DNA of 38,260 nt from Bacteroidales bacterium (lineage in GTDB: Bacteria > Bacteroidota > Bacteroidia > Bacteroidales > Tenuifilaceae), in the NCBI GenBank assembly GCA_013376985.1, contig JACABB010000041.1, forward strand, positions 6,809 to 45,068. Direction: 5' to 3'. Shown piece by piece: positions 1,296-16,439 of the stretch. Under the pieces are notes generated by a model, which saw nothing but the letters and a program-made list of their open reading frames with translations, ran no database searches and was not told where the DNA came from. The stretch's first letter is position 1. Every line of letters begins with the position of its first letter. The position numbers and the translations under genes are program-made.

Positions 1296-2360
1296 ATGAA
1301 TACAGAAAAAACTAAAATTCCATTGATAGTACATTTTGCTGTGCTTATGCTGAGTTTGATTGCTTTTGCCGTAGGTTTTTGGCATACACATCTCGGGTTA
1401 AAAGAGATGAGGCCTTTCGAATCCGATTATGGTAGTATTTTAATTGCGTCAATCATACTTCTTTTATTATTAATTTCTTACTTCTTTGCTATTGCAGGAA
1501 AAGGGGTTGCATTATTAATTTATTTGATTTGTGCATGTTTTTTTATAGTGTTCAACCTAAACTTTTTTTACCCTTCATATTTGGGTCGTCAATTAGTAAA
1601 GGAAGAGGCCATTAGATTAAATGATACATTACAAAGATTTTCAAACAGAGTAAAATTGATAGATAAGTCAAATATTGCTGATGTAAGCGAACTCCATTCT
1701 CTTCAAGAAAAAATATATGATGAAATCAAAAGACAATCGGGTTTCGGACCGAGAGCAACCGATTACCTAAATCAGTTTAATGCTATAACAGGTGGTAATC
1801 TTAAAGCAAATATTCGCATAGGAGTAACACAGGAAGAACGTGAAGAAATTGCTGCAGCATATAATAAACTTCTTGAAAAAGAGATTGAAAATTATGTTGT
1901 CAAACAAATGGCGACAGGAAATACAGAAAATGCAAATAAATTGTATCAAGGTGTGGTTGCTTTAGACACAATTAATAAGTTTTATTCACCAATTCTAAAA
2001 GAAATTATTGCTGATGATAATAGAGTTCAATTAGAATCTGTAAAGACACACCCACAAATCAATCATCTACAAAGATTAATAACAAGTTTGGATGATGCTA
2101 CTATTAAAATAAATGAGGCAAGCAACAAACAAATTTTCCCAAAACTTAACGAAGCTAAAACACGTAATTTGGGGCGTATTGCACACACGTTAAATTCTAT
2201 AATGGAACGAATAAACCACATAGATACCTGGGCTATGATTTTACTTTGTTTGTTTATCGACTTGCTTGTACCATTAGCGATATACATATTAATTCGCAAA
2301 AAAGCAGATGATCCAGGTATAACGATTGCCGTTTTACGGAAACATGGCAGGAAATTATAA
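1296..2360 (+). CDS. Four-TM membrane protein with large helical periplasmic loop (unknown family)
   Basis: This 354-residue protein begins with membrane segments at about residues 9-29, 46-65 and 70-92 and ends with one at about 311-333. In between is a charged, helix-rich region of roughly 218 residues with coiled-coil-like stretches (around 95-150 and 175-215). The C-terminus is strongly basic (IRKK...RKHGRKL), so by the positive-inside rule both ends are cytosolic and the long loop is periplasmic. I do not recognise the family. It is the first gene of a tight operon; the next gene, a P-loop GTPase-like protein, begins 35 bases after its stop. Its likely role is the membrane partner of a nucleotide-switch system, which is inference from context. 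Confidence 0.75.
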   Translation: MNTEKTKIPLIVHFAVLMLSLIAFAVGFWHTHLGLKEMRPFESDYGSILIASIILLLLLISYFFAIAGKGVALLIYLICACFFIVFNLNFFYPSYLGRQLVKEEAIRLNDTLQRFSNRVKLIDKSNIADVSELHSLQEKIYDEIKRQSGFGPRATDYLNQFNAITGGNLKANIRIGVTQEEREEIAAAYNKLLEKEIENYVVKQMATGNTENANKLYQGVVALDTINKFYSPILKEIIADDNRVQLESVKTHPQINHLQRLITSLDDATIKINEASNKQIFPKLNEAKTRNLGRIAHTLNSIMERINHIDTWAMILLCLFIDLLVPLAIYILIRKKADDPGITIAVLRKHGRKL

Positions 2361-2395
2361 TTAACGTATTAATATAATTTAATAAAAATATCATT

Positions 2396-3385
2396 ATGGC
2401 AGTTCCATACAAAGAAGAAGAAGTAAAAGTAAAAGCAAAAGAAAAAGCCGTTATAGAAACAGTTAATTCTGCATATTCATCAAGGATGAATTTGGCAAAA
2501 ACAGATCAAAGGAAAATTATTGAAGCACTTTCGGATTTGGCTCAAAATCGTTATCAGTTTGTAATTCCTATTGGTTTCCCAGCAGCAGGCAAATCGTTGT
2601 TTTTATCTTCACTGTTCCATTATGCTGATAGAGATATTGCTAAAAAATGGAATGCGGATCCTAAAACGGAGGATCCATTTTATTATGGCAATATGTCAAG
2701 AAATGCAATGATAAATTTTTTCGATGCAAAAAGGGCATATGCTCAAACAAAAAGCGGAACGCTAGATTTAATTGGAATGACATTAGAACCAATGAATAGA
2801 AATCTACCCGATTTAGACCTGACATTCATTGACCTTGCGGGCGAAGATATTCAAAGAATTAAAACCGACAAAGGTGGTGCTTTGTCAAAAGCAATTGAAG
2901 GTATCTTTCATGCTTTAAATCAAAAAAACGTTGAACCTATTTTTTGTTTGATTACCCCATACAAACCTTCCGATGGTGATAATGCAGAAAATGATTTACA
3001 TAAAGATTTCCTTAGCTACCTCAAAGAGTATCACGCTGATTTATACTCTCGTTCAAAGTTTATTATTTTGGTTACTCAATGGGACAAAAAGCCCGAAACT
3101 AAGAATTTGACTGTAGAAGAATATATTCAGAATAAACGACCTGCTTTATATACAGCCCAATTTGGTAAAAAAGCCAAAATTTTTTACCGGGAATATTCAA
3201 TTGGAAGAGTGATTGAAGCCGAAGAAATAGACGAAAAAACGGGAGAAACAAGACCTAGTATTTTAATTAACAGTATTGATACTGAATACCCAGCAATTTT
3301 TTGGAATAAGCTATACCTTTTAGCAACTGGCCGCTCACTGGAACCGCTTGGTTGTTGGGGTAAATTATTTGGAGGATTTAGATAA
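2396..3385 (+). CDS. P-loop GTPase-like protein (TRAFAC/double-GTPase type, provisional)
   Basis: This 329-residue cytosolic protein carries a Walker A motif GFPAAGKS at residues 60-67. A switch-II-like DLAGED follows a hydrophobic strand (LTFIDLAGED, D146-G149-E150). A base-recognition-like TQWDK at 227-231 sits after a strand (FIILVTQWDK), where small GTPases have NKxD. The order and spacing fit a single GTPase domain of about 180 residues with a helical N-terminal extension. The TQWD in place of NKxD fits the divergent GTPases described by Burroughs and Aravind in prokaryotic conflict systems, but I cannot assign the exact family. Its stop is only 8 bases from the next gene, whose product has a cytosolic domain followed by a TM helix and LysM. 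The pair probably couples nucleotide state to the envelope. Confidence 0.8.
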   Translation: MAVPYKEEEVKVKAKEKAVIETVNSAYSSRMNLAKTDQRKIIEALSDLAQNRYQFVIPIGFPAAGKSLFLSSLFHYADRDIAKKWNADPKTEDPFYYGNMSRNAMINFFDAKRAYAQTKSGTLDLIGMTLEPMNRNLPDLDLTFIDLAGEDIQRIKTDKGGALSKAIEGIFHALNQKNVEPIFCLITPYKPSDGDNAENDLHKDFLSYLKEYHADLYSRSKFIILVTQWDKKPETKNLTVEEYIQNKRPALYTAQFGKKAKIFYREYSIGRVIEAEEIDEKTGETRPSILINSIDTEYPAIFWNKLYLLATGRSLEPLGCWGKLFGGFR

Positions 3386-3393
3386 TTTTTAGT

Positions 3394-4851
3394 ATGGAAA
3401 ACAAGGAAATAAGTATAATTCTGTTCGGCAAACCGAAGGCATTTGAAATTTATGAACTTTTTGAAAATGGTGCTGTAAAAAATATTGAAACCGAAAATCA
3501 GAGTCCAGAATTTTTGCCAATCAGCATTTCCGATAATATTTGCCACTTCTATAAACGAAAGGGCTTTTACTACTATGAGGTATATTCAGAAGCGTTTGCT
3601 AACAACGTCACTCGTGCGGGCAATTTAATAGGTTTTTGTATTAAGTCAAAAAACAAAATTGTTGTTAATACTGAATTTGTTAATGTTCTATTTAGTAATT
3701 ATCAGGACATTAAAAATGACTCATTGAAAAACAATACTTTCATTTATTCAAGTTTATGGAATGATTTTATTAATAAGATAAAGATTGAAAAATTTGTTTC
3801 AGCAGTTATTTTAAGTATCAACTCTTTTGCCACGCAAAGCAAAAATTTTAATTTAGAAACACGCCTGATTGAGCGTGGTAATAACGAAATTGGTAGCATC
3901 CAACTAGATTTGGACAAATATGAATATTACATTTCCCAAGACGACGGTATTTTCAAAGATACAATAAACAAACAAAAATTCTTTGAATTGGGTGAGCAGG
4001 TTTACCAACTCAATAAAAGTGGCAAGGTGATTCCGAAAAAAGCATTAATTGTTGAGCCTAAATCTGATAATAATGTATCGATAGATTTTTTAAACAGAAA
4101 AATACAACAATCAGACAATGTTGATGAGATAAAAAAACTTCTAAAGCAGAAAGATAAAATTATTTGGCAGGAGCAGCAGAAAACAAAAAAACGCAATTTA
4201 GTAATTATTATCATTTGTATTTTGTTTGCTATTGGAGGTAGTGCTTTTGGCTGGTACAGTAAAGATATGAATAAAAAAATAGCTGACAAAGAAAGCGATA
4301 TTGTAAAGAATGAAAGGAGAATAGAGGAACTGGATAAAAAAAAGGAAGAATTATATGATGAGATTGCAAATAAAAAGAGGAAACTACAAGAAACCGATGC
4401 TAATAAGGCAGAATTAATGGGAAAGTTAGATGAGTTGAGAATAGAACATAACAATTTAAAAGCTGATTTTAAAGATTACAAAGATTCTCATAAAGTCAGT
4501 CAAAAAGATTTAGATAGTTATATTCTAAAGACTGAAATTGACAACAAAAAGTATTTTGACAAGAGTTATATTGACAAAAACTATGTATCAATAAGTAAAT
4601 ATAACGAGTTAAAAGAAAAAAATGAAAAATTGAAAGAACCTGCTGATACAAATGCCAGTAAAAAGTTACAACCAGAAGATACTGATAAATTGAAAAACGC
4701 AGAAACACCCAAAGTACACATTGTTAAGCTAGGTGAAACATTAAGTTCTATTGCTACAAACTATTATACAACAATTGAAAAACTAAAGAAGTTAAATAAA
4801 CTTAAATCTGAAGATATTAAACCCGGACAAAAACTAAAATTGAAAGAATGA
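3394..4851 (+). CDS. Cytosolic domain-TM-coiled coil-LysM protein, GTPase partner
   Basis: This 485-residue protein has four parts. Residues 1-230 form a globular, beta-rich N-terminal domain (for instance the VTRAGNLIGF motif near 72-81) that I do not recognise firmly. It is reminiscent of the N-terminal domains of 'GTPase-associated protein 1' partners. Residues about 268-287 are one TM helix preceded by KTKKR. Residues 290-370 form a long coiled coil with a heptad-like K/E pattern. Residues about 441-484 are a LysM domain (VHIVKLGETLSSIA...KPGQKLKL). The positive-inside rule puts the N-domain in the cytosol and the LysM in the periplasm, where LysM domains bind peptidoglycan. The gene overlaps the downstream lipoprotein gene by four bases (ATGA). 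A cell-wall-tethered sensor or anchor for the adjacent GTPase is the most economical role, by inference. Confidence 0.8.
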   Translation: MENKEISIILFGKPKAFEIYELFENGAVKNIETENQSPEFLPISISDNICHFYKRKGFYYYEVYSEAFANNVTRAGNLIGFCIKSKNKIVVNTEFVNVLFSNYQDIKNDSLKNNTFIYSSLWNDFINKIKIEKFVSAVILSINSFATQSKNFNLETRLIERGNNEIGSIQLDLDKYEYYISQDDGIFKDTINKQKFFELGEQVYQLNKSGKVIPKKALIVEPKSDNNVSIDFLNRKIQQSDNVDEIKKLLKQKDKIIWQEQQKTKKRNLVIIIICILFAIGGSAFGWYSKDMNKKIADKESDIVKNERRIEELDKKKEELYDEIANKKRKLQETDANKAELMGKLDELRIEHNNLKADFKDYKDSHKVSQKDLDSYILKTEIDNKKYFDKSYIDKNYVSISKYNELKEKNEKLKEPADTNASKKLQPEDTDKLKNAETPKVHIVKLGETLSSIATNYYTTIEKLKKLNKLKSEDIKPGQKLKLKE

Positions 4852-5441
4852 AAATTTTAGCAAAAATCATTTTTATAAACTCACTTTCTTTGGTTCTATT
4901 TTCATGTAACGATTGTCTAAATGTAGAAATAGAAAAAGCAGAGTGGGTAACCAGACGTGAAGATTATAGAAAAGATACTTTGGTTAGCTATAGCGTAAAA
5001 GATGCTGTGAGATTAACGGAATATTCATCAGGTTCAAATAGGGATTCACACACTCATGATGTTACAATACGCAATAATAATACCAGGTATTCAAATCGTT
5101 ATGCAGTGCAATTCTTTTGTAAATATAATTACGATACTCCAAATAGTTGGATACATACAACCGATTACGTTGAAATAGGACCAAATAGCGAATATACTTT
5201 TTCGTATAATTGGTATGGTGCAAGAGGTACTTATGATTCGGATTTTTCAGTAAAAATAGAAATTCTGCAAGAACCCGAAAAGATTATCTTAATTCGCCGA
5301 ATAGATGAATTGATCCTTTCCAAAATCACAATAAACACCTGTGAGAAAAGCGCAGAGGCTGAACAGGCAAAATACAATGCCATAAAAGAGTACTATCTGC
5401 AAAAAGTTAATAAATCAAAACAAATAATCATTAACAAATAA
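4848..5441 (+). CDS. Lipoprotein of unknown function in GTPase/LysM operon
   Basis: The 197-residue product starts with a short basic and hydrophobic leader (MKILAKIIFINSLSLVLFSC) ending at Cys20, a typical lipobox for lipid attachment. The mature part is rich in beta-type sequence with repeated Asn/Tyr/Thr, and has a charged helical tail near 160-195 containing AEAEQAKYNAIKEYY. It is not a family I know. The start overlaps the stop of the LysM protein gene as ATGA, which implies translational coupling and a shared function. The product probably sits in the periplasmic face of a membrane near the LysM domain of its neighbour. Confidence in the gene and lipidation is good; the role is unknown. 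Confidence 0.75.
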   Translation: MKILAKIIFINSLSLVLFSCNDCLNVEIEKAEWVTRREDYRKDTLVSYSVKDAVRLTEYSSGSNRDSHTHDVTIRNNNTRYSNRYAVQFFCKYNYDTPNSWIHTTDYVEIGPNSEYTFSYNWYGARGTYDSDFSVKIEILQEPEKIILIRRIDELILSKITINTCEKSAEAEQAKYNAIKEYYLQKVNKSKQIIINK

Positions 5442-5447
5442 TAGTTT

Positions 5448-5996
5448 ATGGGTGAAAATAGACATCTGGACAGCTATAAACCACCTGCCTCATCAAACGA
5501 AGAAAAATTGTATTTCCTTACTTATGGCAGAATACGAAGGCGTGCATTTTTTTTAAGAACGCTTTTGGTCTTTTCAATTTTGATTATTGCCAATCTTATA
5601 ATGGAAAATTATTTTAACCAAGAGTATTACAGATGGCAAAATATTGGTAATGGTGTTGTTAGAAACCAAGGTTTTCTGTTTTGGTATAATGTTTATTCTA
5701 TTTTTAATTATTTTGTACTAACTATCTTGCTTGTAATATTTTTCATAGTTCAATCGACAAAACGAATCCATGATGTAAATAAAAGCGGGTGGTATGTCCT
5801 TGTGCCATTCTACAATATTATTTTGTGGTTATCTGAAGGTGATAAGGGACAAAACGATTACGGATTAGATCCAAAACCTTATAAAGTTGAAAAATATTAC
5901 GACAACACTTTGTATCAGTGTTCGAAATGCAATCATGAACAAGTAAGGCGAGGAATGAAAGAATGTCCAAATTGTAATACTAAATTAAGTTGGTAA
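5448..5996 (+). CDS. DUF805-family membrane protein with C-terminal zinc ribbon
   Basis: This 182-residue protein matches the DUF805 pattern: an LTYGRIRRRAFF start motif at about 24-35, TM segments near 36-52, 79-101 and 113-130, a TKRIHDVNKSGWY motif at about 104-116 (family form RLHDxGxSGW), and NDYGLDPKP at 136-144. Unusually, it continues into a zinc-ribbon-like tail with CSKC (158, 161) and CPNC (173, 176). DUF805 proteins are common small inner-membrane proteins of unknown biochemistry. The gene begins six bases after the lipoprotein stop and is the last tightly packed gene of the operon. The zinc ribbon could provide a cytosolic docking or nucleic-acid-binding surface, which is speculative. 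Confidence 0.82.
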   Translation: MGENRHLDSYKPPASSNEEKLYFLTYGRIRRRAFFLRTLLVFSILIIANLIMENYFNQEYYRWQNIGNGVVRNQGFLFWYNVYSIFNYFVLTILLVIFFIVQSTKRIHDVNKSGWYVLVPFYNIILWLSEGDKGQNDYGLDPKPYKVEKYYDNTLYQCSKCNHEQVRRGMKECPNCNTKLSW

Positions 5997-6131
5997 AAAC
6001 CCTACGACTAACGCCAAAATTTAGCTAAAACGAGGAAGTGACGAATTTCAGTTATTTAAATACCGATGAATATTGGGTTTTTAAATAGTTCAGAGAATGG
6101 ATTTTGATACTAAACCTTAATAATTAAAGTG

Positions 6132-6362
6132 ATGGGAAGTTTTTCGGTAAAAGTAGTTTATGGCAATGGTAAGCCAGCAAGAGATATTGGTGTAATGATT
6201 GATTACGGTATTTTGGGTGGTTATGATGAAAAAAGAACACATAGCGATGGATGGGTTGAATTTCATAATTATGGAAATTCATCTGGAAACATTTGGGTAC
6301 ACGGGGAAAATATGGGTTCCCATTCTTTAGCAGATGGGAAAACATATTCTTTTACTATATAG
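6132..6362 (+). CDS. Small beta-sandwich-like protein of unknown function
   Basis: The frame gives 76 residues from the ATG at 6132; a GTG three bases upstream is less likely. The sequence FSVKVVYGNGKPARDIGVMIDYG...THSDGWVEFHNYGNSSGNIWVHGE has the alternating pattern and 'GxPxxxxxVxi...TdxxGxaeF' logic of carboxypeptidase-regulatory-like or similar small beta-sandwich domains. It has no signal peptide. It lies 135 bases after the DUF805 gene on the same strand, with a gap long enough for its own promoter. It may be a late member of the operon or an independent small gene. The family resemblance is by pattern only. Confidence 0.6.
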   Translation: MGSFSVKVVYGNGKPARDIGVMIDYGILGGYDEKRTHSDGWVEFHNYGNSSGNIWVHGENMGSHSLADGKTYSFTI

Positions 6363-6431
6363 TTTTGAAAATAAAAATACAACAAACGTATTACAGTTCC
6401 TGTTCGGAATCTTAGTCGAAAATAGAGATAA

Positions 6432-6488
6432 GTTTATTTATCACCTGATTTTGATGAGCCAGTGGATTTTAAAGACTATATATACTAA
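6432..6488 (+). pseudogene. Remnant of a DUF2281 (antitoxin-like) gene
   Basis: One frame encodes VYLSPDFDEPVDFKDYIY followed by a stop. This is the conserved C-terminal end of DUF2281 proteins, whose typical ending has DFDEPLEDF. The same frame is closed by stops immediately upstream, and upstream FG-type coding occurs in another frame. Only the tail of the gene is left. A second, fuller but broken copy lies at 7652-7855 on the other side of the Rpn nuclease gene. Confidence 0.6.
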
Positions 6489-6595
6489 TACCCGCTATAA
6501 TACCTGTAAACAAGCCCCCCTTCATTTTAAAAAAGAGTGCTGGCAGCAAAAGTTACGAATCATAAAAAAGAGTATTTTTGCATAAAAAGTACAGT

Positions 6596-7483
6596 ATGTC
6601 AATTGATTTCAAAGAAAAATACATAAACCCATTCACCGATTACGGATTTAAACGCCTCTTTGGAGAAGAGCCAAATAAGGATCTGCTTCTTGATTTCTTA
6701 AACGAGCTACTGCAATCGGAGCAGGGGCATATTAAAGAACTGACATATCTTAAAAGTGATAGGCTTGGCTCAAGCGAAGAGGAAAGAAAAGCTATCTTCG
6801 ACCTCTACTGTGAGAATGAGAAGGGCGAAAAGTTTATAGTAGAACTGCAAAAGACAAAACAAAAATTCTTTAAAGATAGAACAGTATACTACTCAAGCTT
6901 TCCTATTCGAGAATCGGCAAGGAGGGGAAGCGACTGGGATTTTGAGCTAAACGCCATTTACACGGTAGCCATACTAGACTTTGTTTTCGATGAGGATAAA
7001 AATCAGGAAGATAAATACTTGTACAATGTTAAGCTGTCCGATATTGAGACCAACAAGGTTTTCTACGACAAGCTGACTTTTGTGTATTTGGAGATGCCAA
7101 AGTTCAATAAGACCATAAAGGAGCTCAAAACCCGATTCGACAAATGGATGTACATTATCCGCAACCTTAACAAGCTTGATCGGATCCCTGATGAATTAAG
7201 GGAAGGGATATTCGAAAGGTTGTTCGATATAGCAGAAATTGCAAAATTCACACCCTTGGAAGTTCGTACGTACGAGGATAGCTTAAAAACATACCGAGAT
7301 TTAAAAAACTCAATAGATACCGCCCGAGAAGAAGGAGAAATAAAAGGAAAGATTGAAGGAAAGATTGAAGGAAAGATTGAGATTGCTAAAAAACTTACAA
7401 AGAAAGGATTTAACATTCTGGAAATTGTTGAGATAACTGGATTGACAAGGGAGGCGATTGAGAAAATAAAAAACGAAGGGTAA
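6596..7483 (+). CDS. Rpn-family PD-(D/E)XK nuclease / recombination-promoting protein
   Basis: I chose the ATG at 6596 (MSIDFKEKYI), giving 295 residues; a TTG at 6578 adds six poorly supported residues. The start NPFTDYGFKRLFG is the signature opening of this family. The PD-(D/E)XK active site is visible as D69 (AIFDLYC) and E83-x-Q85 with Lys (FIVELQKTK). These proteins are related to E. coli RpnA-type DNA endonucleases that promote RecA-independent recombination, and are abundant in mobile regions of Bacteroidota. The C-terminal helical tail contains an in-frame tandem repeat GKIEGKIEGKIE at about 249-260, and ends in a short HTH-like segment (GLTREAIEKI). It appears intact. It is flanked by decayed antitoxin-like genes, which fits a turnover-prone locus. 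Confidence 0.85.
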   Translation: MSIDFKEKYINPFTDYGFKRLFGEEPNKDLLLDFLNELLQSEQGHIKELTYLKSDRLGSSEEERKAIFDLYCENEKGEKFIVELQKTKQKFFKDRTVYYSSFPIRESARRGSDWDFELNAIYTVAILDFVFDEDKNQEDKYLYNVKLSDIETNKVFYDKLTFVYLEMPKFNKTIKELKTRFDKWMYIIRNLNKLDRIPDELREGIFERLFDIAEIAKFTPLEVRTYEDSLKTYRDLKNSIDTAREEGEIKGKIEGKIEGKIEIAKKLTKKGFNILEIVEITGLTREAIEKIKNEG

Positions 7484-8032
7484 TCGAGTAGGCAGCCGAT
7501 AAACTTTTAACCTATCTGAGAGCCTCTCTGCGCTACTAGCAGTGTTCGTGGTGTTTAAACCTAATTGTAAAAGCAATAGACCCCAGATGAAAGTACAACC
7601 TTTTGATTCGAGTTTTGAAAATAGAGTTGTACCTTTGTTAGAGGAGGTGTTGTGAAGCAAATTCAATTATATACAAAAATCAACTATTTGCCAACGGATC
7701 TAAAATCGGAGGTAACCGATTTATTGATTGTTTACTGAGTAAAAGGAAAAGTGAAGCAAAAAAACAACCTAAATTTGGTTGTGCCAAGGGGCAAATTTAT
7801 TTATTGCCTGATTTTGATGAGCCATTAGAGGATTTTAGAGATTTCATGTTGTAGGTTATTTCCAGAATTTATATCAGAATACAAATACTTCCGAAGAATT
7901 TTACAATTAAGCCATTCAATAGATTAATTGTGTTAATGAAAATCAAATATCCAAAGTGGAGACCAGAACCCACAAAAATAAACGGGGCGAATTCCGAAAG
8001 GCCATAAGAGTAGGAGGAAATAGTATTGCATT
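7484..8032. other. Decayed intergenic region between rpn gene and decarboxylase
   Basis: Apart from the broken DUF2281 gene at 7652-7855, this stretch has no intact gene. Bases 7490-7640 and 7856-8000 contain only short, interrupted frames and look like eroded coding DNA. A purine-rich AGGAGG lies about 15-20 bases before the decarboxylase ATG at 8033 and may act as a ribosome binding site. Confidence 0.5.
7652..7855 (+). pseudogene. Frameshifted DUF2281 antitoxin-like gene
   Basis: From a GTG at 7652, just after GAGGAGG, one frame reads VKQIQLYTKINYLPTDLKSE, continues VTDLLIVY, then hits TGA at 7736. The adjacent frame continues LLSKRKSEAKKQPKFGCAKG and then QIYLLPDFDEPLEDFRDFML to a stop at 7853-7855. 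Together they make a complete DUF2281 protein of about 67 residues. Adding one T to the T-run at 7720-7722 restores VTDFIDCLLSKRK, so a single-base deletion explains the break. DUF2281 proteins are usually antitoxin-like partners of PIN-domain (VapC) toxins; no PIN gene follows. An assembly error in the short T-run is possible but the run is only three bases. Confidence 0.75.
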
Positions 8033-9358
8033 ATGGAACTAAGGCATGTACCAAAATACAGAGTAGGTAGGTGGTTACCCTCGGATAGGGATTACCTAAC
8101 CAGCTGGATTGAGAAAAAGGTTGTTCAAGCCAATGCAAGCGATAAACCTTTGCATCCAAGCATTCAGAAGCTAAAGGATTTGATTGAGAATGATCCAATC
8201 CTATATATGTGCTTTACGGGTATGTATGATGATATTCCGCAGGGGTATAATGCTCCTATAAAGAATTTTGATACCATGCTGCGGGTGATGAATGAAATTA
8301 TCTCGGAGTCTATTAGCTACAGCGTTATTGAGGATAATATAGGCTTAGTTGGGTTTCCTATAAATGCTATTCTGGATTGGGCAATGGGTACTCAAGGGGG
8401 GTATTTGGCCTTTACCAATGAGAAGGTAAATGAAAATCTATATAATATTCTTGAGGTTTGGAAGAAGTTTTTGGGTTCAAGCGATTCCAGATATGTACTG
8501 GTAGAAGGGGAGATTCCTCACCAAGAAACATACTATACAAATCCTATAGGATGGTTTAGCCCGGCAGCATTGGAGGCACTTGCCGCAGCAGATCCATTGC
8601 GTGGGAAAGGATCGCCATATGAAGCAAAGGCCAATTTTATTTATAATTTTAAGTGTAACCCAAAAGCAGATTATTGGGGGTATAAGAGCTGGGATGATTT
8701 TTTTATCAGGGAGTTTAACGCAGGAGTGCGCCCTGTAGAAAGCCCTGCGGATGATAATGTTATAGTTAACGCTTGCGAATCGGCACCTTACAATTGCCAA
8801 ACGGCAAAAACCAAGGATAAGTTCTGGATGAAGGGGCAGCCGTATTCATTATACGATATCATGGCGCATGATCCGCTCTCGCTAAAGTTTAAGGATAATA
8901 GTACGGTTTATCAGGCGTTTTTATGCGCAAAGAGCTATCACAGGTGGCATAGCCCTGTAAATGGAACTATTGTAAAGGCATTTAATGTTAAGGGTACATA
9001 CTATGCAGAGGCTCCTGTGGCAGGGTTTGATCCGGCTGGGCCAAACGATTCTCAGGGTTATATTGCGGAGGTGGCTGCTAGGGCAGTTATTTTTATTGAG
9101 GCGGATAATAAGAGTATTGGTTTAATGTGTTTTGTGGCAATTGGAATGGCGGAGGTATCAAGTTGTGATATTTATGTTAAGCAGGGACAGCATGTTAAGA
9201 AGGGTGATCCGCTAGGGACTTTTCATTTTGGTGGTTCAACGCATTGTTTGATATTTAACGAGAATGTTAAGCTTAAGTTTGATTATCATAACCAAACGCC
9301 AGGGTTAAGTACATCGAATATCCCATTAAGTGCTAAGATTGCAACGGTTATTAAGTAA
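8033..9358 (+). CDS. PsiD-like phosphatidylserine-decarboxylase-superfamily enzyme
   Basis: This 441-residue protein has an N-terminal helical domain (about 1-170, the PSDC-type extension found in PsiD-like proteins) followed by a PSD-type catalytic domain. Visible motifs are WDDFFIREF at 220-228, AYHRWHSPVNGTIVK-like sequence at 300-315 (here KSYHRWHSPVNG), FIEADNKSIGL near 354-364, and the self-cleavage site FGGSTHC with Ser402. In this superfamily the chain is cut before that Ser, which becomes the pyruvoyl cofactor. Length and motifs resemble the fungal L-tryptophan decarboxylase PsiD (439 residues, FHFGGSS) more than bacterial Psd, which is shorter and membrane-bound; no TM segment is visible here. 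The substrate is therefore uncertain: an aromatic amino acid or another small amino acid is plausible. It is monocistronic with a terminator after it. Confidence 0.88.
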   Translation: MELRHVPKYRVGRWLPSDRDYLTSWIEKKVVQANASDKPLHPSIQKLKDLIENDPILYMCFTGMYDDIPQGYNAPIKNFDTMLRVMNEIISESISYSVIEDNIGLVGFPINAILDWAMGTQGGYLAFTNEKVNENLYNILEVWKKFLGSSDSRYVLVEGEIPHQETYYTNPIGWFSPAALEALAAADPLRGKGSPYEAKANFIYNFKCNPKADYWGYKSWDDFFIREFNAGVRPVESPADDNVIVNACESAPYNCQTAKTKDKFWMKGQPYSLYDIMAHDPLSLKFKDNSTVYQAFLCAKSYHRWHSPVNGTIVKAFNVKGTYYAEAPVAGFDPAGPNDSQGYIAEVAARAVIFIEADNKSIGLMCFVAIGMAEVSSCDIYVKQGQHVKKGDPLGTFHFGGSTHCLIFNENVKLKFDYHNQTPGLSTSNIPLSAKIATVIK

Positions 9359-9407
9359 TTGTTGTTTGGTGGGTTGTTTTAAATATGCGAGTGATTTTAT
9401 GGTTATA

Positions 9408-9436
9408 GGCTCCGCCTTAGGGCGGAGTTATTGTTT
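9408..9436 (+). terminator. Intrinsic terminator after the PsiD-like gene
   Basis: A hairpin with arms GCTCCGCC and GGCGGAGT around TTAG is followed by TATTGTTTT. It lies 50 bases after the decarboxylase stop and before the REP array, so it probably ends that transcript. Confidence 0.7.
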
Positions 9437-9478
9437 TAATTTGTGGGTACATAATTCCATTATTGAATATGATATTTC

Positions 9479-9798
9479 GGTGCGCTGCACCTCTGATGGT
9501 ATTTACAATATTTTTCTACAAATATTAGGGTGCTCTGCACCTTAAGAGGAATTTACAACATTTTTCTTCTACAAATATTACGGTGCGCTGCACCTTTGAT
9601 TGATAAGGGGAATGTTTATCTACGAATATTATGGTGCGCTGCACCTCTGATTATTACGGGAAATGTTTATCTACAAATATTGTGGTGCGTTGCACTTTTG
9701 GAGGTTATTACAAATAATTGGCTACAAATATCACGGTGCGCTGCACCTCTGATTGATAAAGGGAATGTTTATCTACGAATATTATGGTGCGCTGCACC
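9479..9798. repeat. REP array 1: seven 13-bp hairpins with ~51-bp period
   Basis: The hairpin word GGTGCGCTGCACC (stem GGTGC/GCACC, loop GCT) or a near copy starts at 9479, 9529, 9582, 9633, 9684, 9735 and 9786. Spacings are 50, 53, 51, 51, 51 and 51. Copy two has loop TCT, and copy five ends GTTGCACT. Each hairpin is preceded by a conserved CTAC(A/G)AATATT-type word (ATC in one case), and the interspacer sequences fall into a few related types. It is a tandem array of REP-like palindromes next to an IS200-type transposase gene. Confidence 0.9.
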
Positions 9799-9870
9799 TT
9801 GTGGCTGTGCCAATACAAATTGTATAATAGGGGAGAAGTATGTTTTATAATTCTACAGTTGTATCGCAAA

Positions 9871-9935
9871 GCAGCAGAGCTGCAAAATATTTGTAGAAAC
9901 GAATTCGAAGAACATTACCACAGGTGCAGAGCACC
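9871..9935. repeat. Two inverted REP units beside the transposase
   Basis: Hairpins GCAGCAGAGCTGC at 9871-9883 and GGTGCAGAGCACC at 9923-9935 are 52 bases apart and in the opposite orientation to the flanking arrays: the first is followed by AAAATATTTGTAGAA and the second by GTAATATTT, the complement of the word that precedes the other units. The first keeps a perfect five-pair stem although its sequence differs, which is compensatory change. Confidence 0.75.
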
Positions 9936-9942
9936 GTAATAT

Positions 9943-10422
9943 TTAATCACATTCATCAATATTTTCAAAGAATTCAAACAGGTGTTCCCGATTAAATTCA
10001 ACATTGTTTTTTTCTAGCATTTCTAAATATTCTTCTTTGAATGGTTTCTTTTTGTGATGCTCTTCCTGCGATAAAATATATTTTACCACGGTGTCTATTT
10101 GTGAACGGGAATGGGTAAAAGCACCATAGCCCTTCTGCCATTCAAATTTAAATTTTGATAGTTTTTTCGTTTTAATCCATGAGTTGGATGATGTTTTAAT
10201 TTCTTCTACCAGATCGGGTATCAAGTGATTTACATTGTATCCGATCATAATATGTAAATGATCGGGCATAGCACCAATTGCTAACATTTTATGCTTGTGA
10301 TTTTGGACAATTCCTGTTATATACATTTCCATTTCGGTTTTCCATGCTTTCTTTATTAGCGCATCACGATTTTTTACTGCAAAAACCAAATGGAAATAAC
10401 ATTGGGTATAAGTGTTTGCCAT
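9943..10422 (-). CDS. IS200/REP-associated tyrosine (HUH) transposase
   Basis: This 159-residue protein is the size of a Y1 transposase. The HUH metal motif is visible as MPDHLHIMIG (His-Leu-His at about 55-57). The catalytic tyrosine is probably in VVKYILSQEEHHKK near residue 114. The N-terminus YTQCYFHLVFAVKNRDALI is typical of the IS200-like proteins common in Bacteroidota genomes. Enzymes of this class nick and rejoin single-stranded DNA at hairpins; the RAYT subgroup acts on REP palindromes. Arrays of matching hairpins lie on both sides (9479-9935 and 10555-10770), so this gene is probably the agent that spread them. It appears intact and starts with ATG. No tnpB gene is present. Confidence 0.88.
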   Translation of the reverse strand: MANTYTQCYFHLVFAVKNRDALIKKAWKTEMEMYITGIVQNHKHKMLAIGAMPDHLHIMIGYNVNHLIPDLVEEIKTSSNSWIKTKKLSKFKFEWQKGYGAFTHSRSQIDTVVKYILSQEEHHKKKPFKEEYLEMLEKNNVEFNREHLFEFFENIDECD

Positions 10423-10554
10423 TGTGTTTAATTATTGTTGAGTGGTATCATAAAGATAGAAAAAAATTATGGAGACACGAACCTTGGGGTTTATTATAGC
10501 GAAGTAAGTTTATGAATGTGTTTGGGATAATTCTAATAATGGATAAGATATTTC

Positions 10555-10770
10555 GGTGCGCTGCACCTTAAGAGGAATTTATAACATTTTTCTACAAATA
10601 TTACGGTGCGCTGCACCTTTGATTGATAAGGGGAATGTTTATCTACGAATATTATGGTGCGCTGCACCTTTGGAGGTTATTACAAATATTTGTCTACAAA
10701 TATCACGGTGCGCTGCACCTCTGATTGATAAAGGGAATGTTTATCTACAAATATTTCGGTGCGCTGCACC
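10555..10770. repeat. REP array 2: five 13-bp hairpins with ~51-bp period
   Basis: Copies of GGTGCGCTGCACC start at 10555, 10605, 10656, 10707 and 10758, with spacings 50, 51, 51 and 51. Spacer sequences are close copies of those in array 1, for example TTGATTGATAAGGGGAATGT after 10605 and after 9582. Array 2 therefore seems to be a duplication of part of array 1, or both came from one ancestral array split by the transposase segment. Confidence 0.9.
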
Positions 10771-10790
10771 TTAGAGTTTATAACAACAAA

Positions 10791-10828
10791 AACTGCCGGT
10801 AGGATTTCTTTAATCCAAACCGGCAGTT
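10791..10828 (-). terminator. Intrinsic terminator of the AFOR operon
   Basis: Ten-base arms AACTGCCGGT and ACCGGCAGTT enclose an 18-base loop. Read on the minus strand the second arm is followed by TTTTTG. It lies about 20 bases after the AFOR stop, so it is the terminator of the minus-strand operon. Confidence 0.85.
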
Positions 10829-10846
10829 AATATTAGTTGGTATATT

Positions 10847-12802
10847 CTACCCGTAAATCTGTTTTTTTACTTCGGGAAGATTCAGCTTATCCAGAGTAAT
10901 CTTTAAGGGTACGGAGGTGTTAGGATCCCATCCCATTGCACCAAAGTAGGCTTTTTTGGCATCATCCCACATTAAAACGTTAGGACTATAGGCATTGGGC
11001 CCATCATTCATGGCTGGATTTCCACGTGCACGTTCGGGCATTCGGATTTTTGGAACATCAATATTTTCGCGCAGGTTAAACGCATGTCGGATGGTTTTTA
11101 TTCTTTGGCCTGTGAGTAAATAATCATCTAAAGTGTTATTCCAGCCAGTGGTAGCATTTATCCACTCAACAAAAGGAACCATAGGCCCTAAGTAAAATCC
11201 GAAGTTGCATAATCCCATTGCATTTATAATGTCTTCGCCGCAGCTCGCATTCTTAAGGGAGGTACCCATTTCGCTGTCGGTGGTGGATTGCTGCGAAAGG
11301 TTATACTTGGGCTGAAATTTAAGTTTTTGGTAGTACTTGTTTAGGACTTTTGAGTTGAGTTCGGTCTGCTTTTTCTCCTTTTCAATATAATCATCTATGC
11401 CCGAAAAGGTGCTGGTATGTCTGCCTGGGGTAGGTTCAACCTCGTAGCCAATACCTAAACCTAATCCGCCCTCTTTGTTTCTTGAATCGTGCATTGGTAG
11501 TTCCTGCCCATGAACGTGCATAGCAGTAAACTCCTTATCTTCAAGTTTGAGGTTTTTTAAAGCTTCTTTGAGACCATCTTTTAGCTTTGCACCAAACCCT
11601 TCGTTATTGGCAATTTGCTTTACCAATTCCATTACGGCTTTACCGTTTCCCCATTCTAGTTTTAAGCCACCTGTTGTTTTCTCGTTAATATATTTTTTCT
11701 CGTATGCCTCAAAAGCCCAGTTGATGGTTGTTGCACAGCTAATGGTATCTAATCCAGCCCTATTGCATAATTCATTGGCAGTGTAGATACTCTCAAGATC
11801 GTTATTTAGAAGTTGTACCCCAAACCCGCAAAGGGTTTCGTATTCTGGTCGATGAGTTTCCTTTAGTATTTTGTTTCCAGGGACTTCGCATATTCCTCCA
11901 CAGCCAAATGGGCAGCCATAGCAGGCATATTTTTCCTTTTCGTATTTGGTAACCTCAAAGGCATTAATCTTATCGGCAACTTCTTTTGGAAAATCTTTAG
12001 TTCCAATACCCATCCAGTTTTTAACTGGTGAATCGCCACTTTCGGCAGAATCGGTGAGGGTTCCGGCAGTACCACAATTTTTCATGGTTTTACCAAAGTC
12101 GTTAAGGTCGTTAACCAAACCTTTGAGTAGGGTTGTGGTATTCTCCCAAACTTTATCGGAGTTGAACTCCTCGGCATAATGAGTTCCCTTAACGCATAAG
12201 GCTTTCAGATTTTTAGAGCCCATTAAAGCACCAAAACCGCTTCTGCCAGCAAGTCTACCCTTGGCATTTACTACGCCTGATATAAGAGAAAGATTTTCTC
12301 CGCCAGATCCAATGCTAATCACCCTATAATCATTTCCATGAGCATCTTTAAGCATTACCTCTGTGTCAACAGCGTCTACCTTTTTCCAGAGATGAGCGGC
12401 ATCTTTAAATTCAACTTTACCATCATCTACTATGATGTATATAGGTTTGGGGCTTTTGCCTGTTATAAAAATACCATCGTAACCAGCGTTTTTAATGGCA
12501 GGGGCAAAATCGCCTCCACAGTTGGAATCTCCCCAAGTATCGGTTAAAGGACTTTTGCCAGCAAGTATCCAACGACCATTAAATGCAGCCCGTCCATTGG
12601 TTAGCAAGCCGCTCATAACTGCTAAAATGTTATCGGGATCAAACTTTGACAGGCCTTTTTTTTGCCTATCGTAAATGATTTTTGCAGCTAACCCATACCC
12701 ACCAATAAAAAGTTGATATATTTTATCATCAATAATCTCTTCATGGGATGTTTTATCGGTAAGGTTTAACCAAAGTATCTTACCATGATATCCTTTTTTC
12801 AT
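10847..12802 (-). CDS. Aldehyde:ferredoxin oxidoreductase family protein
   Basis: The 651-residue protein has the AFOR layout. An N-terminal domain binds the tungsto- or molybdopterin (GYHGKILWLNLT..., GGYGLAAK at about 34-41, GRWILAGKSPLT near 76-87, GRSGFGALMGSKNLKAL at 186-202). A [4Fe-4S] motif is C294-x2-C297-x3-C301 with the distant fourth Cys532 in AMGLCNFG. These enzymes oxidise aldehydes to acids and pass electrons to ferredoxin in anaerobes; some relatives act on other substrates. Length is slightly above the typical 605-620. It starts 31 bases after the HAD gene and is the last gene of an operon led by a glycyl radical enzyme pair, so it may oxidise an aldehyde that the radical enzyme makes. 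The substrate is not predictable from sequence. Confidence 0.9.
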   Translation of the reverse strand: MKKGYHGKILWLNLTDKTSHEEIIDDKIYQLFIGGYGLAAKIIYDRQKKGLSKFDPDNILAVMSGLLTNGRAAFNGRWILAGKSPLTDTWGDSNCGGDFAPAIKNAGYDGIFITGKSPKPIYIIVDDGKVEFKDAAHLWKKVDAVDTEVMLKDAHGNDYRVISIGSGGENLSLISGVVNAKGRLAGRSGFGALMGSKNLKALCVKGTHYAEEFNSDKVWENTTTLLKGLVNDLNDFGKTMKNCGTAGTLTDSAESGDSPVKNWMGIGTKDFPKEVADKINAFEVTKYEKEKYACYGCPFGCGGICEVPGNKILKETHRPEYETLCGFGVQLLNNDLESIYTANELCNRAGLDTISCATTINWAFEAYEKKYINEKTTGGLKLEWGNGKAVMELVKQIANNEGFGAKLKDGLKEALKNLKLEDKEFTAMHVHGQELPMHDSRNKEGGLGLGIGYEVEPTPGRHTSTFSGIDDYIEKEKKQTELNSKVLNKYYQKLKFQPKYNLSQQSTTDSEMGTSLKNASCGEDIINAMGLCNFGFYLGPMVPFVEWINATTGWNNTLDDYLLTGQRIKTIRHAFNLRENIDVPKIRMPERARGNPAMNDGPNAYSPNVLMWDDAKKAYFGAMGWDPNTSVPLKITLDKLNLPEVKKQIYG

Positions 12803-12833
12803 TGTGCCTTTTGTTTAGAGTTATGATTAAGAT

Positions 12834-13862
12834 TTACTTGGTCATCCAAACTGTTTTAAACTCTTGAGCCATATCAACTCGTTTCCAACCGTTCAATCGC
12901 ATTGTTCTCTGCCATGTTGTATCAGTTGGTCCGTGATATGGAGGATAGGCATATTCTCTGATTGAGTCGTTATGGTTAAGCAAATATGCAGCATTTGGGT
13001 ATTTACTTGTTGATGCAAGGCGGAACATACCAAAATCGCCAGTAGTGTTGCCGAATGCAAATACTGGAACTTTGCCTATTTGTGAGTAGATATTTAGACT
13101 TTTCCCATCTTTATCATCTTTTGGGGGGAATATGCCTTTTGCGATAATAAATTGGGTTCTTTTTTCAATTGGGAAATATTTGGGAGATAAAATCTGATTT
13201 GTTCCAATGAGATGATCGCGATTGAATCCAATGATTTGAGGGCAAACACTCCAGATTACTCCTCTTACAGAGCCAGATACCACGTAAATGTTGAACTGAT
13301 TCTCTTTGAGGTATTTTAGCAATTCGAGCATGGGTTCGTAGAACATGTAAGCAAGGGTAATGTTGAATCGTTGGTCTTTTGTTTTGAATAGGTATCGATT
13401 GGCTGAATCGATGTATGCCTCATTATCAACACCCTTATATGCTTTCCACACCATAGAGTCGATATAGTTGTAGTATGGCTTGGTTGTAAAGTTAGTCCAA
13501 TGATTTAGTACCGAAGTATCGTTGGAGTTTTTTGCAAGTTTTAGAGCATACTGATACTCTGGGTATTTTAAAAGTTTAGGATCAGCCTTTGATTGCTGAT
13601 TTAGACCATTAACGGCTGCGTACATCTCGAACCAGAGAGGGGTTTCGCATGCAAGGGTTCCATCCATATCAAAAACGGCAATTCTATCTTCAACTGGGAT
13701 TTGGGCAACCGCTTTGTTCATATATTCGATGATGGATTTTTTTATTGGAGTTTCATTCCATGATGGTAGAGGATCCTGATCCTGAACTGGTTTTTCATGC
13801 TTGCAAGCGCAGAAAGAGATAAGGAGAAATGCAAGTGCAAGGTTGTAACTAATTGTTTTCAT
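12834..13862 (-). CDS. HAD-superfamily phosphatase, predicted lipoprotein
   Basis: I start the gene at the ATG at 13862, giving 342 residues with a signal peptide MKTISYNLALAFLLISFCAC ending at a lipobox-like Cys20. A longer frame would overlap a strong hairpin. HAD motifs are clear: FDMDGTLAC (nucleophile D65 and D67), VVSGSVRG (motif II), and FAFGNTTGDFGMF (motif IV). Such enzymes hydrolyse phosphomonoesters. The export signal places it in the periplasm, unlike the cytosolic enzymes encoded on either side. It could dephosphorylate an incoming substrate before uptake by the pathway. It sits between the glycyl radical enzyme (66-base gap with a hairpin) and AFOR (31-base gap). Family assignment is good; substrate is unknown. 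Confidence 0.85.
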   Translation of the reverse strand: MKTISYNLALAFLLISFCACKHEKPVQDQDPLPSWNETPIKKSIIEYMNKAVAQIPVEDRIAVFDMDGTLACETPLWFEMYAAVNGLNQQSKADPKLLKYPEYQYALKLAKNSNDTSVLNHWTNFTTKPYYNYIDSMVWKAYKGVDNEAYIDSANRYLFKTKDQRFNITLAYMFYEPMLELLKYLKENQFNIYVVSGSVRGVIWSVCPQIIGFNRDHLIGTNQILSPKYFPIEKRTQFIIAKGIFPPKDDKDGKSLNIYSQIGKVPVFAFGNTTGDFGMFRLASTSKYPNAAYLLNHNDSIREYAYPPYHGPTDTTWQRTMRLNGWKRVDMAQEFKTVWMTK

Positions 13863-13888
13863 TATTATTGGGTTTAAGTTTAGTAAGA

Positions 13889-13919
13889 AATCAAGGTGTG
13901 AAGATTCCACACCTTGATT
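13889..13919 (-). promoter_or_regulatory. Intra-operon 12-bp hairpin after the glycyl radical enzyme gene
   Basis: Perfect arms AATCAAGGTGTG and CACACCTTGATT surround a seven-base loop. The hairpin starts about nine bases after the GRE stop on the minus strand and is followed by TTCTTAC rather than a long T-run. It may be a leaky terminator or a 3' stabiliser that lowers HAD and AFOR expression relative to the radical enzyme. Confidence 0.7.
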
Positions 13920-13928
13920 TTGTAGAAT

Positions 13929-16439
13929 TTAATTCATTTTTACTGGACGGTTGATGTAGTTCTCCATATGCGATAGCGGGAGTGTTATAAATGGAGCATT
14001 CCAACCTCCAACTCGTACCATGATATCCGAATACTTTAGCAATTTCTCCGAGGCTACTGTAGGATTCTCAATTAGGTTGGCTGCCTTAGCAATTTCATAT
14101 ATTTCCTGATATTGAGGCGATGCAATAGTAACAGTTAGCATACCTCCATTTTTTTGTATAAAAGTTTTAATTATGCCATCCAGTAACGCATCAGATTCGA
14201 GGCAAATATCTGTGATTACACCAGCTGCAAAACGGTTTAATCCTAATTGACTGAATGTTTCAATCAAATTTGCTGGGGATGTATGCCAAGTGCCTGAAGC
14301 AGGGGTGAAGTTTGGTGCTAAAGGATCACCCGTATTTCTGGATGCAGATGCGGCGTTTCCTGCTCCTTGCCAGTTATACTGTTCAAAGGTACCCATGCCT
14401 GCTGTAAATTTCAAGTCGAAGTCGGGGAGTATGGTTTGTAATGCTTTACCATAATACCCTGCAATAGCCCTTAAAGCCCAAATCTGCTTATCGTTGTCGC
14501 CTTTAGGATCTAGAAATACTTTGTTGGCTAATGTTTTGGATTGGTTTACAGCGTTAACAAATGTGTCTAAAATAAATTTAGCGATATCATTGGTTTCGCT
14601 GTCGTTACCGAATTGAGGACTGTTGGTGAAGAAATCAACTTTAATAGAATCGAATAAACGCTGAGTTTTAAAGTCACCAGTATCACCTGCGGTGTAATTG
14701 AAACGTAAGGCACTCAGCACATCCGATAGTTTGTATTTCTTTTGATCAAATACCCATTTCTTAATTGCAGCAACAGTGTTAACCATATCAGGAACTCCTC
14801 CTAGTACAGTGCCACCTAAGTTATATTCTGCGCCACCCCATGATTTATCGCGACCATTTTCTAAGCATTTTCCAAATAAAGCAGAAACTAGGGGAGAGGG
14901 AACAACAAATTCGGAGGTGAGATAGTACAGGCACATTGCTAAAGCTGACTGATCAACAAAGAATTGAATTTGCTTAGTAAGAGAATTTTTCAGGCTATTG
15001 TAGTCTGTTAATTCTCCCGTGTCAATGCTTAATTTCTGACCACGAAGTAGGGCAGGGTTGGAGGTTAAAGCGGCACCCCGATTAAGAGTACACTCCATTA
15101 TGGTCATACCGTTTATCATACCAAAAGTCCATTCGCTTATACCGTTAAGGATTGGTTCCCAGCATCCATCCACACAATAATCGTTAGCCAATTCCTGATA
15201 TTTTTTCAGTTTATCAGGTTTTGTTTCACCAAACGATAATGCGCTAAGCATGGCAGGGATCATCACCTCATCGTTTAAAATGTATGGTAGATTTTTTGTC
15301 ACCTTAATCGATTCGGAAACGGCAGCATACAATTTAGCGGGGCTATCTTTGTGTAGCCTTACGTAGATACCTGGAGTGGATAGATTTACATTCTTAAATG
15401 CTTCGAGGATGATATATGTGCAATCATTCGTGGCATCCTTTCCTTCGGGTGTTTTACCACCAATAATGATGTTTTGTAGGAAGTTATTCAGACCCGCTCT
15501 TTGATCAAGGTAGTATGGATGTATACCAAGGGCTGCATTATAATCCATATGATCCTGTGTAACTAAATATTGCGTTGTTAGATTAAGACGCCCCGCTGCT
15601 TTAATAATGAAGTTTTCAAATAGTTCGCATGCGAAGGCTTTATCTGTTTCTTTTTTCAAATATGGATTTAATACCTGATCGAGCCGGCCAAGTGACATAA
15701 AGTCCATTGTTGAATGCAGGCAGCAATGTACAAGCCATATGCTATGTATGGCTTCGTAAAATGTTTCGGCGGGTTTAGCTGGAACTTTGTTGCAAATGCG
15801 TGCAATTTCGAGCAATTCTTTTTTTCTTTTTTCATCCTTACAGGTTTTCGCCTTTTCGGATGCAAGATTTGCAAACCTTGAAGCATAATCAATAACGGCT
15901 TTACAAGATATTATTATTGCTTTGTAAAATGCTTTTTTATCATAGGCATCTTCAATATCTCCCAATGCTTTTGGATGTAATTTTTCCTCCGCATAAATTA
16001 TGATGCTCTGTAACCCATTTTTGAGAACTTTTTCGTAGTTAATTGAATTATGACCAAGCAAGGACATTGCCGTTTTATTGGTGGCAGAACCAACTCGAAG
16101 TTCTTCCTCGGTAAGATAATTAGGGAATACTTTACCTAACCCGTTTGAGCCCATAGGAATAGTCCCTGCTAATAAATCACCTTCCTCAATGTCGAAGCAG
16201 CGTGTATACCCAAAATCCTTTGTATTGCACATTGCTTTTAGCATTTCATCTACACCGTATGCTCTACGGATCATTACATGCTCGTTAGGATACATTTTGG
16301 CCACATCGGGGAGCCAGGGTCTTGTTGTTAAATCTGCCTGCTCATTCTTTTTAAACCACTCCTTGGTTCTGTCTTCAAACCCCCTTTTCATAAGGTTCTC
16401 ACGTAGCTTAGCAATACGTGGGCTTAATTCTGTTTTCAT
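13929..16439 (-). CDS. Glycyl radical enzyme (PFL/dehydratase superfamily), substrate unknown
   Basis: The 836-residue protein has the size of the PFL-like lyases and dehydratases. The radical-bearing loop near the C-terminus is RVGGWNAPF, with Gly812 as the likely radical site; most relatives read RVxGYxxxF or RVAGFxxxF. The thiyl loop is VDGCWEP, with Cys426 and Glu428. The Cys-x-Glu pair is shared with the diol dehydratase, choline lyase and hydroxyphenylacetate decarboxylase branches (usually GCVEP), whereas PFL itself has two adjacent Cys. The Trp between Cys and Glu is unusual. The activase gene overlaps its start by four bases. HAD phosphatase and AFOR genes follow. A C-O, C-N or C-C lyase that yields an aldehyde for AFOR would fit, but I cannot name the substrate. 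Confidence 0.88.
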   Translation of the reverse strand: MKTELSPRIAKLRENLMKRGFEDRTKEWFKKNEQADLTTRPWLPDVAKMYPNEHVMIRRAYGVDEMLKAMCNTKDFGYTRCFDIEEGDLLAGTIPMGSNGLGKVFPNYLTEEELRVGSATNKTAMSLLGHNSINYEKVLKNGLQSIIIYAEEKLHPKALGDIEDAYDKKAFYKAIIISCKAVIDYASRFANLASEKAKTCKDEKRKKELLEIARICNKVPAKPAETFYEAIHSIWLVHCCLHSTMDFMSLGRLDQVLNPYLKKETDKAFACELFENFIIKAAGRLNLTTQYLVTQDHMDYNAALGIHPYYLDQRAGLNNFLQNIIIGGKTPEGKDATNDCTYIILEAFKNVNLSTPGIYVRLHKDSPAKLYAAVSESIKVTKNLPYILNDEVMIPAMLSALSFGETKPDKLKKYQELANDYCVDGCWEPILNGISEWTFGMINGMTIMECTLNRGAALTSNPALLRGQKLSIDTGELTDYNSLKNSLTKQIQFFVDQSALAMCLYYLTSEFVVPSPLVSALFGKCLENGRDKSWGGAEYNLGGTVLGGVPDMVNTVAAIKKWVFDQKKYKLSDVLSALRFNYTAGDTGDFKTQRLFDSIKVDFFTNSPQFGNDSETNDIAKFILDTFVNAVNQSKTLANKVFLDPKGDNDKQIWALRAIAGYYGKALQTILPDFDLKFTAGMGTFEQYNWQGAGNAASASRNTGDPLAPNFTPASGTWHTSPANLIETFSQLGLNRFAAGVITDICLESDALLDGIIKTFIQKNGGMLTVTIASPQYQEIYEIAKAANLIENPTVASEKLLKYSDIMVRVGGWNAPFITLPLSHMENYINRPVKMN

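Follow-up and report, generated by a model that had tools for sequence, protein, structure and literature searches.

A 38,260-nucleotide stretch of contig JACABB010000041.1 from a Bacteroidales bacterium (the window, meaning the whole stretch analysed) carries an operon of five intact open reading frames (ORFs), all on the + strand and spanning positions 1296–5996, with intergenic gaps of 35, 8, −4 and 6 bases. The encoded proteins are labelled A–E in gene order (B and C of the window are P0002 and P0003, respectively), and all coordinates are window positions unless a locus label (L0xx) precedes them. An earlier description made from the letters alone (the sequence-only reading) had reported the same layout, and most of its gene-level claims hold: A has four hydrophobic segments and a loop of 226 amino acids (aa) that is helical in the predicted model; B is a P-loop protein in which the expected GTPase motifs are seen; C joins an N-terminal domain, a transmembrane (TM) helix, a charged, coiled-coil-like stretch and a LysM domain; and D bears the lipobox of a lipoprotein. 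In E, the DUF805 assignment stands and the proposed zinc ribbon comes down to two CxxC pairs whose match lies under the Pfam cut-off (E = 0.0092). Here we show that the conserved unit is the three-gene core A–B–C, built around a predicted DO-GTPase1-like GTPase, and we propose, with a probability of about 0.6, that the operon encodes a trans-envelope G-protein switch.

Conservation of the three-gene core

Relatives of B are detected patchily. P0002 matched 2 of 295 genomes in the order of its host (its own and G193), a two-sequence B profile matched 5 of 395 genomes in the class, the own genome included, and a 14-sequence profile matched 16 of 395 genomes in the phylum at E ≤ 0.001, 10 of them with E ≤ 1e-16 (four of these ten being profile sources). 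The Pfam DO-GTPase1 model listed 14 of 296 phylum genomes, 5 above its cut-off, the own genome not being listed at E ≤ 0.001. A pattern scan of genome contigs with a three-sequence alignment yielded 8 confirmed stretches out of 65, every one of which belongs to Bacteroidota broadly defined (Bacteroides, Flavobacteriaceae, Sphingobacteriales, Azobacteroides, Kapaibacterium, Ignavibacteria and two labelled "Bacteroidetes").

Fourteen distinct family loci have sequence on both sides of B (the window, L003, L009–L012, L030–L032, L034, L035 and L037–L039), the canonical L028 and L029 and the by-eye SRP54-like L033 having been excluded. An A-like protein lies 5′ and a C-like protein 3′ of B in all 14, as recognised by eye; C is also present in L040, where the sequence begins inside B. 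Because A and C had first been recognised by eye, profiles of both were built and tested on six later loci fetched through B alone, and they matched the expected neighbours in five. The sixth, L075, keeps the order, with genes for a four-TM protein, a remote GTPase and a C-like protein, but its A and C stay under threshold. The distances of A, B and C across 19 loci correlate (r = 0.86–0.92; 0 of 2,000 permutations reached such values); the core genes keep company, whether through common descent or through transfer as one unit. As profiles, the branches of C match one another at 1.1e-5 (near–mid) and 7.4e-6 (mid–far), and at just 0.02 (near–far). The operon of the sequence-only reading is thus real and conserved beyond chance; of its five-gene order, which recurs in full in L034 and L035, only A–B–C is constant.

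The remote variant in L075 (G606:C4:30001-44000, positions 4642–14000) has a B protein with a long N-terminal extension that matches DO-GTPase2 (5.6e-8), and lies next to genes for a subtilase and for an SrfC-like protein (PF10139, 4.8e-97).

Table 1 Features of the operon and of lipoprotein genes near related cores
Feature	Position	Strand	Basis or remarks
Protein A, 354 aa, core component	1296..2360	+	TM 8–26, 48–66, 70–88, 315–333; loop aa 89–314 predicted periplasmic
Predicted periplasmic helical part of A (aa 89–314)	1560..2237	+	Hydropathy, charge, AlphaFold2; membrane side inferred
Protein B, 329 aa, predicted DO-GTPase1-like P-loop GTPase, core component	2396..3385	+	Pfam, hhalign
Walker A/P-loop GFPAAGKS of B	2573..2596	+	Sequence
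Walker B/G3 FIDLAGE of B, including the G-E pair	2825..2845	+	Sequence
G4-like TQWD of B	3074..3085	+	Sequence; SQWD, SKWD, SKFD or similar in relatives
Protein C, 485 aa, core component	3394..4851	+	Cytosolic longin-like domain (predicted), one TM helix, extracytoplasmic charged stretch, LysM
Longin-like domain of C (aa 1–145)	3394..3828	+	Predicted by structure comparison
Transmembrane helix of C (aa 269–287)	4198..4254	+	Hydropathy
Charged, coiled-coil-like stretch of C, past the TM helix	4261..4548	+	Composition; weak coiled-coil Pfam matches
LysM domain of C (aa 442–483)	4717..4842	+	PF01476, 4.2e-14
Protein D, 197-aa lipoprotein, accessory	4848..5441	+	Lipobox LFSC
Protein E, 182-aa DUF805 membrane protein, accessory	5448..5996	+	PF05656, 2.5e-13; C-terminal CxxC pairs
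Retropepsin-like and SNase-like lipoproteins	L009 4151–5229, L031 4658–5293, L037 10749–11129		SNase-like in L009 only

A putative trans-envelope G-protein switch

P0002 matches Pfam DO-GTPase1 (PF19975) at 2.2e-6 and 27.6 bits, narrowly above the cut-off of 27, and the B proteins of L003 (17.1 bits) and L009 (26.3 bits), each taken alone, fall under it. Compared by hhalign, the B family profile meets DO-GTPase1 with a probability of 98.6 and E = 7.2e-16 (9.2e-7 against DO-GTPase2), the DO-GTPase1 side comprising sequences of two Bacteroidota loci and of eight plasmids, with seven of the plasmid sequences truncated at the N terminus. A G-E pair follows the Walker B aspartate/glutamate in 18 of the 21 B proteins; we tentatively read it as the conserved Walker B glutamate stated in excerpts of PMC7159879. 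By these comparisons B is predicted to be a DO-GTPase1-like GTPase, in agreement with the earlier suggestion of kinship to the GTPases of predicted conflict systems. Within its own genome P0002 matched only itself at E ≤ 0.001, and the operon has a single DO-GTPase gene.

Both partners of B are predicted membrane proteins. A simple hydropathy threshold returned four segments in 16 of 20 A proteins, with two or three in the other four, and a single segment in 18 of 21 C proteins, with none in L011, L012 and L032. Charge counts favour an outside location for the long loop of A. The AlphaFold2 model of A is all-helical (mean predicted local distance difference test score 72, predicted template modelling score 0.47), and its structure comparison gave no diagnostic match. 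The N-terminal domain of C is predicted by structure comparison to have a longin-like fold; longin domains are characterised by the order beta-beta-alpha-beta-beta-beta-alpha-alpha. Past the TM helix, the tails of C measure 0 to 232 aa across loci. That of the window ends in a LysM domain (52.7 bits; curated cut-off, 20.9) for which peptidoglycan binding is predicted. Among the 10 C proteins scanned, of 20 in total, Pfam LysM is found in P0003 only and not in those of L003, L009, L010, L012, L030, L032, L034, L035 and L039, nor in the remote L075. The LysM-coupled GTPase of the sequence-only reading accordingly describes the window, where a LysM protein with a TM helix is encoded, and not the family.

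We propose that the constant core consists of the four-TM protein A with its periplasmic helical part, the cytosolic GTPase B and the membrane protein C, whose cytosolic longin-like domain would contact B and decide which nucleotide B carries. The extracytoplasmic tail of C would be exchangeable, and in the window the LysM end would hold it to peptidoglycan. The presumed trigger is that the wall or the inner membrane is disturbed, so that the C tail, the helical part of A or both are pulled on or released; the longin-like domain would then alter the GTP/GDP state of B, and B would act back on A, on the accessory DUF805 protein E and on the surface lipoprotein D to bring about a membrane or envelope response. 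Gene content, gene order, conservation and the GTPase family are observations; we infer B–C contact, wall tethering, the trigger and the direction of signalling. The purpose would most likely be to protect the cell when phage, toxin or stress attacks its envelope.

With its three-gene core, its GTPase of a named family, its predicted partner domain and its putative physical link to the wall, the locus represents an uncharacterised bacterial system of patchy occurrence. If the sensor reading is true, it would offer a direct mechanism coupling wall disturbance to a cytosolic G-protein switch in a Gram-negative cell; if the longin reading is true, it would provide a bacterial model of longin control over GTPases, as well as a clue to GAP1, the so far unexplained partner in predicted conflict systems.

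Alternative roles and genomic surroundings

The module could be a dedicated anti-phage immune system, which we regard as possible at clearly less than even odds. In that case a membrane complex would sense the phage at the wall, as it adsorbs or as its DNA enters; the GTPase switch would set the threshold; and the cell would be arrested, or the invader attacked, by accessory proteins of the membrane or periplasm (DUF805, protease, nuclease). This would fit the GTPase family, which is common to predicted conflict systems, the patchy detection (two genomes among 295 of the order, and ten with E ≤ 1e-16 among 395 of the phylum) and the faster divergence of the N-terminal 225 aa of C relative to A (24% versus 68%, window versus L034). 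It would also fit the defence-type neighbours of three loci, described below, and the variable partners. Lipoproteins resembling retropepsin proteases, and in one locus an SNase-type nuclease, lie shortly 3′ of the core in L009, L031 and L037 (the L037 ORF ends at the contig end and was not in the scan) and are possible extracytoplasmic effectors. The proteases of L009 and L031 share 49.6% identity over 125 aa and their B proteins belong to different branches, so that the lipoprotein part seems to have been exchanged.

Clear defence-type neighbours occur at 3 of 17 loci: L034 adjoins a Druantia-type DruE, L070 a type I restriction–modification system and PDC-S14, and L071 an Orf5/HEC-06-type protein (DUF262-like by eye) and a PD-(D/E)xK nuclease, these identities coming from ten proteins of six loci picked by eye. 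When all 110 ORFs of at least 110 aa within 7 kb of the 17 loci were scanned with PADLOC at a cut-off of 1e-20, at least 7 matched, whereas a control set of 110 proteins gave two family matches, from either one protein or two; the excess is suggestive only (one-sided Fisher P = 0.085, taking the control as two). A PDC-S57 match among the neighbours was not attributed to a locus and stands outside the count of three. Against an immune role, too, several loci are surrounded by housekeeping-looking genes, no PADLOC model matches A–D at E ≤ 1 and E is matched only weakly (E = 0.013 at best), and no phage or viral-contig relative of B was found. The comparison with defence islands called for by the sequence-only reading gives clear neighbours at a few loci; of its envelope-sensing immunity, the sensing part survives as a conjecture that we share and the immunity part is not established.

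A second alternative concerns the nature of the partner: the N-terminal domain of C could be of the GAP1-N1 type, with a fold other than longin, and the module a membrane-bound form of the DO-GTPase/GAP1 systems. Pooled C proteins align by hhalign with GAP1-N1 (P = 0.021, 0.04 and 0.017 over 78–84 columns, in order), sharing a glycine and an R-x-G, and the score is higher than that of every one of 150 column shuffles and of the seven alignments made with A, B, D and E. This signal is statistically weak, however: the near branch, that of the window, shows nothing by itself (P = 0.24 and 0.41 at 125 aa), the mid branch gives 0.19 and 0.33 and the far branch 0.021 and 0.029, P rises to 0.21 once L075 is added, and cross-searches with HMMER are not significant. 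No Pfam match to GAP1-N1 (PF20012) was found among the C proteins scanned (10 of 20, plus L075); the missing GAP1-M/C matches are uninformative, because GAP1-N1 was the sole Pfam match of canonical GAP1 as well. By eye, the strand order of GAP1-N1 in L028 and L029 is that of a longin domain, which speaks against a different fold, and both readings of the domain may therefore hold. We consider a non-longin GAP1-N1 domain rather unlikely.

The type VI secretion membrane complex TssJ–TssL–TssM combines an NTPase, a lipoprotein and a TM protein whose tail binds peptidoglycan, and the operon resembles it in layout; two TagF structures are, moreover, among the fold matches of the N-terminal domain of C. 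A constitutive envelope machine in which the P-loop protein drives transport, secretion or upkeep of the wall is nevertheless improbable. The VipB/TssC sheath (PF05943) was not found in the one genome searched, that of the host, at E ≤ 0.001 (the Escherichia coli control was positive), which argues against a role in type VI secretion. B is a predicted relative of DO-GTPase1, the D-family lipoprotein is restricted to 3 of 20 loci, and a housekeeping machine would not be expected to be detected so patchily or to have tails that are exchanged.

The accessory genes recur more narrowly than the core. In L034 (Bacteroides sp. 51) and L035 (Flavobacteriaceae Ap0902, where a 95-aa ORF sits between A and B), the homologues of D occupy the same place with 47% and 26% identity and those of E have 49% and 37%. 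The three loci with D are all sources of the D profile. E lies within 5 kb 3′ of C in eight of nine near-branch loci, seven of which were in the profile used (in the ninth, L038, 870 bases remain 3′ of C), and in none of the 11 other loci, five of which offer at least 5 kb to inspect. That only A–B–C belong together, with D, E and the LysM tail as accessory-region passengers without a role in the module, would suit the scarcity of D (3 of 20), E (8 of 20, several loci with little 3′ sequence) and LysM, and is unlikely given the order that D and E keep with C in L034 and L035 and the E genes at eight of the nine near-branch loci. Small secreted or lipoprotein ORFs that look similar by eye lie 5′ of A in L035 (5797–6177) and L039 (6025–6474).

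Just downstream of the operon lies the Rpn-family nuclease/transposase gene that the sequence-only reading had noted (6578–7483; TIGR01784 2.9e-34, 6596–7483 scanned), with a short GKIEGKIEGKIE repeat close to the C terminus of its product. The decayed antitoxin genes that it had also named were not recovered: no antitoxin family was found in the four flanking ORFs scanned (371–652, 710–982, 6129–6362 and 6596–7483). Further off, 31625–32899 encodes a secreted protein that has the look of a caspase-type peptidase by eye. Elsewhere, the stretch 5′ of A in L010 (4223–7382) encodes a protein with a caspase domain as well as 8xMP (PF24838), an octameric membrane protein. In L030, L073 and L074, from three genomes of one genus, a very large, collinear gene that is RHS-like by eye ends about 70–80 bases before the core.

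Comparison with known systems

Zorya is a membrane complex with a peptidoglycan-binding (OmpA-like) protein and, to our knowledge, no GTPase. The operon is alike in its predicted membrane complex with a peptidoglycan-binding protein, and differs in its use of LysM and in A, which has no Pfam match to a MotA/ExbB-type (ZorA-like) domain at E ≤ 1.

MglA–MglB and the actinobacterial conservons CvnA–D, as excerpts of PMC13343842 describe them, also pair a GTPase in an operon with a small regulatory domain (roadblock, a longin relative), and the conservons include a membrane sensor. Their pair is a Ras-like GTPase and a roadblock protein, whereas the pair here is DO-GTPase-like and, by prediction, longin-like, neither B nor C having a small-Ras or roadblock Pfam match at E ≤ 1; the operon also contains no histidine-kinase-like protein. 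The eukaryotic and Asgard longin–GTPase modules FLCN–FNIP, GATOR1, TRAPP and DENN (excerpts of PMC3521125 and PMC10933270) share the predicted partner fold with a GTPase beside it, but their GTPases are of another family, and here the longin-like domain, a putative partner of the B encoded next to it, is fused to a TM helix and a predicted wall-binding tail.

According to excerpts of Kaur et al. 2020 (PMC7159879), DO-GTPases belong to predicted conflict systems, where they accompany GAP1 and either a GASH or an FNIII protein and often lie close to the membrane; L029, a canonical locus of Bacteroidota, encodes PNP-GAAD, GASH, DO-GTPase2, DO-GTPase1 and GAP1. These GTPase-centric systems share with the operon the GTPase family, a partner gene directly 3′ of the GTPase gene, TM parts and variable partner modules, with peptidoglycan-binding or other extracellular domains in the GAP1-N2 types. 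In contrast, GAP1-N1 systems have two GTPases and the operon one; its partner is a single-pass membrane protein with a predicted longin-like domain, its first gene encodes a four-TM protein with a predicted periplasmic helical part, and it has no recognisable GAP1, GASH or FNIII protein (no GASH or FNIII match in A–E at E ≤ 1). Pfam GASH is found in the canonical DO-GTPase/GAP1-N1 loci L028 (2.8e-69) and L029 (3.1e-6, barely above the cut-off). In the open-licence PubMed Central literature we found no account of the A–B–C module or test of its function, nor, as the sequence-only reading had supposed, any described system with this exact set of genes. On the features tested, the operon is a predicted DO-GTPase system outside the described GAP1 types. 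The weak pooled profile match and the by-eye strand order suggest that GAP1-N1 is perhaps longin-like itself. We offer tentatively, at somewhat below an even chance, a third type of DO-GTPase system with a transmembrane longin partner; if GAP1-N1 is longin-like too, bacterial conflict GTPases and eukaryotic and Asgard traffic GTPases would share a kind of regulator, here anchored to the wall as a sensor of tension or damage.

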